From Haladaptatus sp. QDMS2 (lineage in GTDB: Archaea > Halobacteriota > Halobacteria > Halobacteriales > Halococcaceae): a DNA stretch of 64,000 nucleotides. The DNA lies in assembly GCF_029338295.1 (NCBI RefSeq), contig NZ_CP119791.1:1488001-1552000 (forward strand), in the 5' to 3' direction. Of this stretch, positions 2,152 to 4,426 are shown in pieces. The notes beneath the pieces are model-generated. The model did not search any database, was not told where the DNA came from, and saw nothing but the letters and a program-made list of their open reading frames with translations. The translations under genes were made by a program, and so were the position numbers. Each line of letters opens with the position of its first letter. Within the stretch, counting starts at the first letter, position 1.

Positions 2152-3471
2152 TCAGGGTTTGACCATGTAGCGGAGCACGAGTCCGACGCTGAGCAGCGCC
2201 CCGATGAGGATGAGCATCGTCGCGAGGCTGACGATGTTCATCCCGAACGAGCCGTACTGGTCGTCGAACAGTTCGCTGTGCGGCGGAGGCGGCTGGTTGA
2301 ACACGTCGTCGACCGCCGGGGTCGTGTCGCCACCATCGACGTCCTCCACCACAGTCGGAAGGTCGGGCTCCGACGTCACCGGGTCGATGTCCGAGGACGA
2401 ATCGTCGTTCGTACCGCCCTTCTTGTCGTCGTTCGGGTTCTTGTCACTGGCGTCGCCGCCGCCAGTCGCACCACTGTCAGCACCGCCAGTTGCTTGCTCC
2501 CCGTCGGTCGTTTCCCCGGACGAGCCTGACTGCTGGTCACCCGAGCCACCGGTGGCACTCTCGTCGGATTCACTACCGCCCGTGTCCGGGTCAGCGACGG
2601 CGTCAGATTGACCGTCGTCACCCGTATTCGTGTCTGGTTGCTCGCTCGGCTCAGGTTCTGGCTCGGGGGCTGGTTCTGGGTCCGGCTCTGGCGCTGGGTT
2701 CGGGTCAGCACGGTCCTCGGTGTCAGGGTCCGCCACGTCCTCGATTCCCTCGTCGCGTGGGGTTGGCTCGGCCGGTTCTGGGTCAGCGCGATTGTCTGGC
2801 TTCTTCTCGGGCCGTTCCTTTTCGGGTGGCCCGCGCTTGTCTTCGCCGTCCCATTTCTCGTGGAACTGCGCGTGTTTCTCTGCCCAGCGTTCGGCGAATT
2901 CACGGGCTTTCTCGTCCCATTTCGCGTTCAAGTCTGCGACTTTTTCAGCGTCAGCACCGTACTTCTCGGTCGCCTTGTCGATCCTATCGCGCTTTTTGTC
3001 CTCAAACTTCTTCGTGTCCTCTCTCGCCTCCTCGTGGAACTCCGCGTGCTCCGACTTGGATTTCGCTGCCTCCTCGCGTGCCTTCTCGGCCTCCTTGCGC
3101 TCCTTCTCCGCGCGTTTTTCGGCCTCATTTCGTTCTTTCTCCGCTTTCTTTTCTGCTTCCTTCTGTTTCTTCTCTGCCTCTTTGCGTTCCTTTTCTGCTT
3201 GCTTCTCCGCTTCCTCGCGTTCCTTCTCGTCTTCGTCCGCGGAGCCTGCGTTCAGAGCCGACGAGTGATAGTCGTCTTCGTCATCGTCATCGTCTCGTTC
3301 CCACTCGTCGTCATCGTCGTCATCGTCGTCGAACGTGCCGAGCGTTTGCACGTCGTTCGTCTGTTCAGTCGGGCCGAACGGTGCGGCTACAGCGACACTG
3401 GGGGCGAACAGAAGCGCGGCCACGACGACGAGAACGAACAATCGGCGTAGCAAATGTCGAGGAGCAGTCAC
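2152..3471 (-). CDS. Secreted, membrane-anchored charged-helix protein of unknown function
   Basis: A 439-residue protein with a clear signal peptide (residues 1-30), an Asp-rich tract (48-67), a long Glu/Lys/Arg/Ala helix (about 80-140) and a mixed helical part to about 210. A Pro/Glu/Asp and Gly/Ser/Thr-rich disordered stalk (210-390) and one C-terminal membrane helix (about 409-433) follow. The charged helix repeats units such as AEKERKEAEKK and resembles a single alpha-helix (ER/K) or coiled coil. The architecture suggests a surface protein held off the membrane by a stalk. It lies downstream of, and on the same strand as, the secreted hendecad-repeat protein at 3729-4199, with a 257-bp gap. 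I recognise no family. Confidence 0.8.
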   Translation of the reverse strand: MTAPRHLLRRLFVLVVVAALLFAPSVAVAAPFGPTEQTNDVQTLGTFDDDDDDDDEWERDDDDDEDDYHSSALNAGSADEDEKEREEAEKQAEKERKEAEKKQKEAEKKAEKERNEAEKRAEKERKEAEKAREEAAKSKSEHAEFHEEAREDTKKFEDKKRDRIDKATEKYGADAEKVADLNAKWDEKAREFAERWAEKHAQFHEKWDGEDKRGPPEKERPEKKPDNRADPEPAEPTPRDEGIEDVADPDTEDRADPNPAPEPDPEPAPEPEPEPSEQPDTNTGDDGQSDAVADPDTGGSESDESATGGSGDQQSGSSGETTDGEQATGGADSGATGGGDASDKNPNDDKKGGTNDDSSSDIDPVTSEPDLPTVVEDVDGGDTTPAVDDVFNQPPPPHSELFDDQYGSFGMNIVSLATMLILIGALLSVGLVLRYMVKP

Positions 3472-3728
3472 AGCGTCCCTCCCCGTCGCTCGTTCGTGGG
3501 GACGTTCGTCTCGGATGACGCACCAATCATGACAACAAGTCTGCCAGCGGGTCGCTTTGTTATGGGCAGCGTGAATGTCGTCGTTCGGGCATTGAAGTCG
3601 GTAAGTAGAGATTAATTTGTAGACAGGTTCGCTGCACGGAGCGTCGAAAAATCGGTTGAGATAACTCTCACGCGTCGAATTTCGCGGAATTCAGATACGT
3701 GGCGGTCGGGAATCGAGGTCGTCGATCC

Positions 3729-4199
3729 TCACGCGGTCCCATTCTCGAGGCGAGCAATCGTTTCCTCGTACTGCGAGATGAGGTTCTGGCGCTTCGTTTC
3801 GTAGATAGCCACTTTTTGCTCCTGTTGGGCTTCGAACTGTCGGGCCGCCTTCGCGAGTTCGGATTCGAACCGATGGGCGTCACGCTGTTGCTGGGCTTCG
3901 AATTTCCCCGCTCGCGTGTCCAGTTTCTGCTCGAAAATGTTCGCGTCGCGGTCCTGCTGGTCCTCGAACGCGCGGGCTTCGCGTGCCAGCTTTTCCTCGA
4001 ACGCGTTTGCATCGCGGTCTTGCTGGCCGGCGAAGTCTTGGTCGAGTTTCGCCAGGTTACGTTCGAACACCTCGGTCACCGCTTGAATCTGCTCCTCGGT
4101 CGAGGAGTCCGTCTCGCTAGCCGCCGCGAGGCCGGGCGTGGCAACGAGTGCGAGCGCGAGCAACACAGCGACAAATTTCGAGAGGCCCCGCTGTGTCAT
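3729..4199 (-). CDS. Secreted protein made of ten 11-residue helical repeats
   Basis: A 156-residue protein. Residues 1-27 are a signal peptide. From residue 45 to the end the chain is one repeat array: an aromatic residue occurs exactly every 11 positions (Phe 45, 56, 67, 78, 89, 100, 111, 122, then Tyr 133 and 144), usually followed by Glu. Alternate units are alike, so the pattern also reads as a 22-residue repeat beginning QQDRDAN. Hendecad periodicity of this kind forms nearly straight, often right-handed, coiled coils or amphipathic surface helices. No enzyme motif or anchor is present. It probably works with the stalked protein just downstream (2152-3471), but that is inference from position and shared helical character. 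Confidence 0.8.
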   Translation of the reverse strand: MTQRGLSKFVAVLLALALVATPGLAAASETDSSTEEQIQAVTEVFERNLAKLDQDFAGQQDRDANAFEEKLAREARAFEDQQDRDANIFEQKLDTRAGKFEAQQQRDAHRFESELAKAARQFEAQQEQKVAIYETKRQNLISQYEETIARLENGTA

Positions 4200-4426
4200 C
4201 GGTCCATCACCCGGTGGCGTTCATCAATCAGCAGGACGTACTCGTCGTGTGGAGAGTCATCTATTGAGGAGAGTCAGTGGTCGTTACCCTTTGTTATAGA
4301 CAGGCCGACGAATTTGGGTCCGGCCTGCGATTCTGAAGGGCGCGCCTAACCCGCGTCTGGGGCTCTCACACACGGTCAGACGGGGAAACGCCGCTGTTAA
4401 ACGTCAGTAGCCGCTACGAATCCGCA

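Follow-up and report, generated by a model that had tools for sequence, protein, structure and literature searches.

Genes and signals at the locus

The window, a stretch of 64,000 nucleotides from Haladaptatus sp. QDMS2, contains a gene, present in a single copy in the genome, for an exported protein with an 11-residue (hendecad) periodicity. A gene for a membrane-anchored protein lies next to it on the same strand, with 257 bp between the two and a promoter-like element before each. The features are as follows.

3729-4199, minus strand: gene for the exported hendecad protein, ATG start, 156 aa (open reading frame read from 4199 to 3729)
4119-4199, minus strand: Sec-type signal peptide, residues ~1-27, read from the translation, with the inferred cleavage at about AAA/SETD
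4206-4211, minus strand: GGTGAT, Shine-Dalgarno-like, 6 nt 5' of the hendecad-gene ATG (sequence reading)
4289-4298, minus strand: TATAACAAAG, TATA-box-like, about 90 nt 5' of the hendecad ATG, with a near-identical word upstream of 2152-3471
3738-4067, minus strand: ten 11-residue units, residues 45-154, with the aromatic first in each and a true period of 22 (spacing and moment analyses)
3744-4106, minus strand: single predicted helix, residues ~32-152 (AlphaFold2, pLDDT ~96 over most of it)
2152-3471, minus strand: neighbour gene, GTG start, encoding a signal peptide, an acidic tract, a helix at 78-211, a disordered linker and a C-terminal transmembrane (TM) segment (sequence and structure model)
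3555-3564, minus strand: CATAACAAAG, TATA-box-like, about 84 nt 5' of the neighbour's GTG (word comparison)

A previous sequence-only reading had placed the hendecad gene correctly at 3729-4199, and the gene runs on the minus strand. Its product begins with MTQRGLSKFVAVLLALALVATPGLAAA followed by SETD, and inspection of the translation agrees with the earlier claim of a signal peptide, of the Sec type, before the repeats. Neither a lipobox nor a C-terminal anchor was found in the translation, and the mature product, 129 residues after the inferred cleavage, is without Pro and Cys. There is no sign of a foreign insertion, as the gene has a G+C of 0.607 versus 0.596 for the window, and its third-position G+C (0.739) is close to the values of the neighbouring genes (0.71-0.83).

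At 766-2124 on the plus strand, a secreted protein is encoded that carries HEYIH followed by LREASAEYY and has a hydrophobic C-terminal end. Judged by these motifs, it looks like a gluzincin-type metallopeptidase; it matches nothing in Pfam or NCBIfam, and its gene is kept beside the locus in both congeners.

The promoter-like word was followed further. In the congener G017, CATAACAAAA stands 5' of the neighbour's homologue. The consensus YATAACAAAR occurs in 13 copies in this genome versus 2 for the reversed control, and it is not enriched in either congener. Six of the 13 copies lie on one strand within 14 kb (G000:C1:253251-267001; L146, L147), before membrane-protein or surface-type genes. 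Because several copies in this cluster stand 17-36 bases 5' of a start codon, a distance at which a TATA box is expected, the word is probably a core-promoter variant and not a special operator. Co-expression of the hendecad and neighbour genes with the 14-kb surface cluster would be only a lead.

The repeat array and its periodicity

The aromatic residues F45, F56, F67, F78, F89, F100, F111, F122, Y133 and Y144 follow one another at an interval of 11 with no gap or slip, exactly as had been described from the sequence. When the mature chain was shuffled 20,000 times and every spacing between 2 and 39 was considered, no run of aromatics exceeded 5, compared with the 10 observed. Glu comes next after nine of these ten aromatics, likewise in line with the initial description, the exception being F56 (Ala57). 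In the power spectrum of hydrophobic residues there is a sole peak at 3.667 (11/3) residues per turn, with a power of 17.5 that was reached in none of 2000 shuffles, and there is nothing at 3.5 residues per turn, i.e., no heptad signal.

The array had been called ten exact 11-residue repeats, which holds for the spacing and not for the sequences: the repeats are degenerate, with a self-identity of 23% at lag 11, 37% at lag 22 and 22% at lag 33. Because identity is highest at lag 22, the unit of the array is 22 residues, composed of the alternating 11-mers FExKLAxxAxx and FExQQxRDANx. Tandem Repeats Finder detected only a weak 33-base repeat of 2.5 copies. When the 22-mer copies were compared, pS was 0.77 and pN was 0.36, about half pS. 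The near-saturated synonymous differences exclude a recent DNA duplication as the origin of the array. As DNA the array is old, and selection acting on the protein has probably maintained its 11-residue pattern.

Distribution and comparison with known systems

Homology searches yielded no usable homologue in Pfam, NCBIfam or PDB, where no match to the protein was significant, or in GTDB contigs and IMG/VR; plasmids and phages gave none either, and no homologue among 394 haloarchaeal genomes of the order was convincing. Among 18 genomes of the family no other carries the gene, and it is absent from both congeners. The best non-self matches in the 394 haloarchaea (E 5.7e-4 to 0.1) were taken as composition, since they are scattered, cover different parts of the protein and in some cases lie in frames with stops. 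Two PHROG matches, of the hendecad protein to a portal (8.9e-5) and of the neighbour protein to a tape measure (3.2e-5), were set aside as probable coiled-coil composition. On these searches, the hendecad gene is a lineage-specific orphan. Such a gene could be a young one with little function, from which a helical low-complexity sequence is exported by chance, as its absence from both congeners and the other haloarchaea searched would allow. We regard this as unlikely given the exact phase across 110 residues, the divergence among the 22-mer copies described above, and the presence of a signal peptide and of Shine-Dalgarno-like and promoter-like signals. That the protein works like Skp/OmpH, as an exported chaperone or tether of helical build, is very improbable: it is small, exported, helical and Gln/Glu/Ala-rich, but neither OmpH nor any other significant match was found in Pfam or NCBIfam, and the structural model has no beta trimerisation part.

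Several known coiled coils share the 11-residue repeat. The stalk of tetrabrachion, a parallel coiled coil, is described as an undecad right-handed tetramer (PMC5744192), and the hendecad protein is, like tetrabrachion of Staphylothermus marinus, archaeal and exported. However, tetrabrachion carries arms and is a large glycoprotein of the S-layer, whereas here a free rod of 129 residues is predicted, which has one aromatic per repeat and no detectable homology to tetrabrachion, matches nothing significantly in Pfam, NCBIfam or PDB, and is too short for a further domain; it is not placed among tetrabrachion or S-layer stalks. Hendecads also give rise to right-handed coils in the peripheral stalks (b2, EG) of rotary ATPases, including the archaeal EG stalk (PMC6131620), and phmmer returned a weak, non-significant match of the hendecad protein to an ATP synthase b subunit (E 0.1). 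Those stalks are cytoplasmic enzyme parts, whereas the hendecad protein has a signal peptide and is encoded outside any ATPase gene cluster. The exported coiled coil of NadA3 contains undecads as well (PMC6191539), but only two of them among heptads, in a trimeric autotransporter adhesin anchored in the outer membrane, in contrast to the ten hendecads without a heptad signal described here. By sequence homology, the hendecad protein belongs to none of these systems.

DNA patterns were scanned in addition, namely (F/Y)E at each 33 nt and aromatics at each 33 nt. The aromatic-Glu pattern found this locus, and the other matches that were read are of unrelated kinds; matches to the 33-nt patterns that were read elsewhere and rejected comprise pentapeptide-like repeats with F at every 5/6 residues, tandem DNA in other frames and chance frames. 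With a five-unit pattern over GTDB, many unrelated, mostly bacterial arrays were among the matches listed, suggesting that F/Y-acidic hendecad repeats arise repeatedly. The F/Y-E-x9 arrays found by pattern (for example L159, L164, L168, L228, L197 and L010) resemble the hendecad protein in having an aromatic followed by Glu/Asp every 11 residues and in their helical look. By contrast, they are mostly bacterial, differ in composition, often with Lys/Arg-rich units, and have no detectable homology to the hendecad protein; from their sequences, the likeness looks convergent. A Prevotellaceae frame (L159:3554-3691) has 24 aromatics at spacing 11 (KTKAKFEAYLQ), an array far longer than that of the hendecad protein. 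In L010, a 237-aa frame on the minus strand encodes a membrane protein, haloarchaeal in origin, in which four aromatic-acidic hendecads (FDEEYQRDKEKFDEQYERDKELFEREYERNIELFERK) come after the membrane part.

A predicted coiled-coil rod and its anchored neighbour

The hendecad protein was modelled with AlphaFold2 as a single chain, without Met1 and without an alignment (model residues 31-151 correspond to protein residues 32-152); given one sequence of such composition, AlphaFold2 readily yields a single helix. On this helix, the Phe/Tyr column lies at 0 degrees, the alternating Leu/Gln column at 33 and the Ala column at 65. The hydrophobic moment of the whole array is maximal at 98.0 degrees per residue, or 3.673 residues/turn. 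Because the repeat corresponds to 11/3, the apolar stripe is straight, and it is narrow, about 65-100 degrees wide. The core columns of the hendecad class are occupied in the sequence over all ten repeats (a=Ala, d=Phe/Tyr, h=Leu/Gln); this register puts Glu at e, and one with a=Leu/Gln, e=Ala and h=Phe fits equally. The core is weak, with frequent Ala and Gln. Hydrophobic contacts are strengthened by high salt.

A straight and narrow stripe accords with a coiled coil that is almost straight or has a slight right-handed twist, and it speaks against a helix lying on the membrane. The latter, which had also been suggested from the sequence, would resemble the amphipathic 11/22-mer helices of apolipoproteins or alpha-synuclein-like proteins, and we consider it improbable. 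The period of 11/22, the lack of proline and a similarity to apoA-I that was weak and non-significant in phmmer (E from 0.27 upwards) would be compatible with it, but the mean hydrophobicity is about 0, the net charge is -11, and only 1 of 112 windows of the protein exceeds the D score cut-off of 0.68, a score designed for low salt and different lipids, without a haloarchaeal calibration. The wide apolar face and favourable charge of the lipid-binding 11-mer/22-mer class were not found in the hendecad protein. The almost untwisted coiled coil that the sequence-only reading drew from hendecad periodicity is supported, by the sequence period and the predicted helix, as the best reading.

The most likely form of the hendecad protein is a coiled-coil rod, located on the cell surface or beyond it; such a rod would be of a known structural kind and not a new system. 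Once the signal peptide is removed, the 129-residue product is predicted to form one helix of about 120 residues, or ~180 Angstrom. Several copies would pack in parallel along the stripe to give a coiled coil with almost no twist or a slight right-handed one, in which Phe layers occur together with layers that alternate between Leu and Gln. Lacking a membrane anchor, the rod would either be free or have a partner that holds it. The anchored neighbour, with the like periodicity of its distal helix and the promoter-like element that its gene shares, would be the most likely partner; this is the weakest step of the model, and we propose it only tentatively. Taken together, the reading that we think reasonably probable is a hendecad coiled-coil rod that is specific to this species, exported by Sec and perhaps bound to its anchored neighbour.

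The neighbour had been described as a charged-helix, membrane-anchored protein, and the analysis agrees: the model (mean pLDDT 61.8) predicts two helical stretches, 78-171 and 175-211, and, at 401-437, a TM helix at the C terminus. The helix at 78-211 has a period of about 3.5-3.7, mostly near 3.64, residues/turn. A disordered linker of ~190 residues is made up of Pro/Asp/Ser/Gly. Residues 76-135, after the acidic run, are Glu/Lys/Arg/Ala-rich and single-helix-like, with mixed 18-, 11- and 7-residue repeats. The hendecad and neighbour proteins have no sequence similarity (E 2.3), and common ancestry was rejected.

Among the 394 genomes, the neighbour's C-terminal anchor is clear only in this genome and in G017 (E 1.2e-9). 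The G017 homologue (L062:4372-5831) has the same anchor and, instead of the helix, a His/Asp-rich N-terminal half, which suggests that the distal part was exchanged as a module, possibly for a metal-binding one. It is dph2-adjacent, as here, and no hendecad gene accompanies it. G016, with a Dph2 of 99% identity, has neither surface gene at the locus, and about 160 bases separate dph2 from the next gene. The two genes are thus not found side by side in these two genomes; such an absence of co-occurrence had been named in the sequence-only reading as a refuting outcome, and on these two genomes it refutes a conserved pair. With the neighbour's helix and anchor supported and the conserved pairing failed, a cell-surface fibre or stalk built by the putative pair is possible.

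One form of such a stalk would be a heteromeric right-handed coiled coil of both proteins standing off the membrane. It fits the adjacent genes on the same strand with the same promoter-like element, the two signal peptides, the helices near 11/3 and the neighbour's C-terminal TM with its long linker. It is nevertheless doubtful, since each gene has its own promoter-like element across the 257 bp gap, the two proteins are not homologous, and the neighbour's only clear homologue lacks both a hendecad gene and a helical region. A further, quite speculative proposal, which we hold to be improbable, is that the anchored 11/3-helix neighbour recruits the secreted hendecad rod to form a modular haloarchaeal surface stalk with exchangeable distal parts. 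If this were true, the distal part would be a helix here and a His/Asp-rich stretch in the congener, and the rod core would alternate Leu and Gln layers.

To our knowledge, uninterrupted natural hendecad coils are uncommon. The hendecad protein is a very clean case, with ten repeats and no heptads, short and probably soluble, and it would provide a convenient natural test of 11/3 helix packing with layers of Phe and Gln under high-salt conditions. Any wider claim would depend on a surface structure being demonstrated; the biological gain is one species-specific exported rod.
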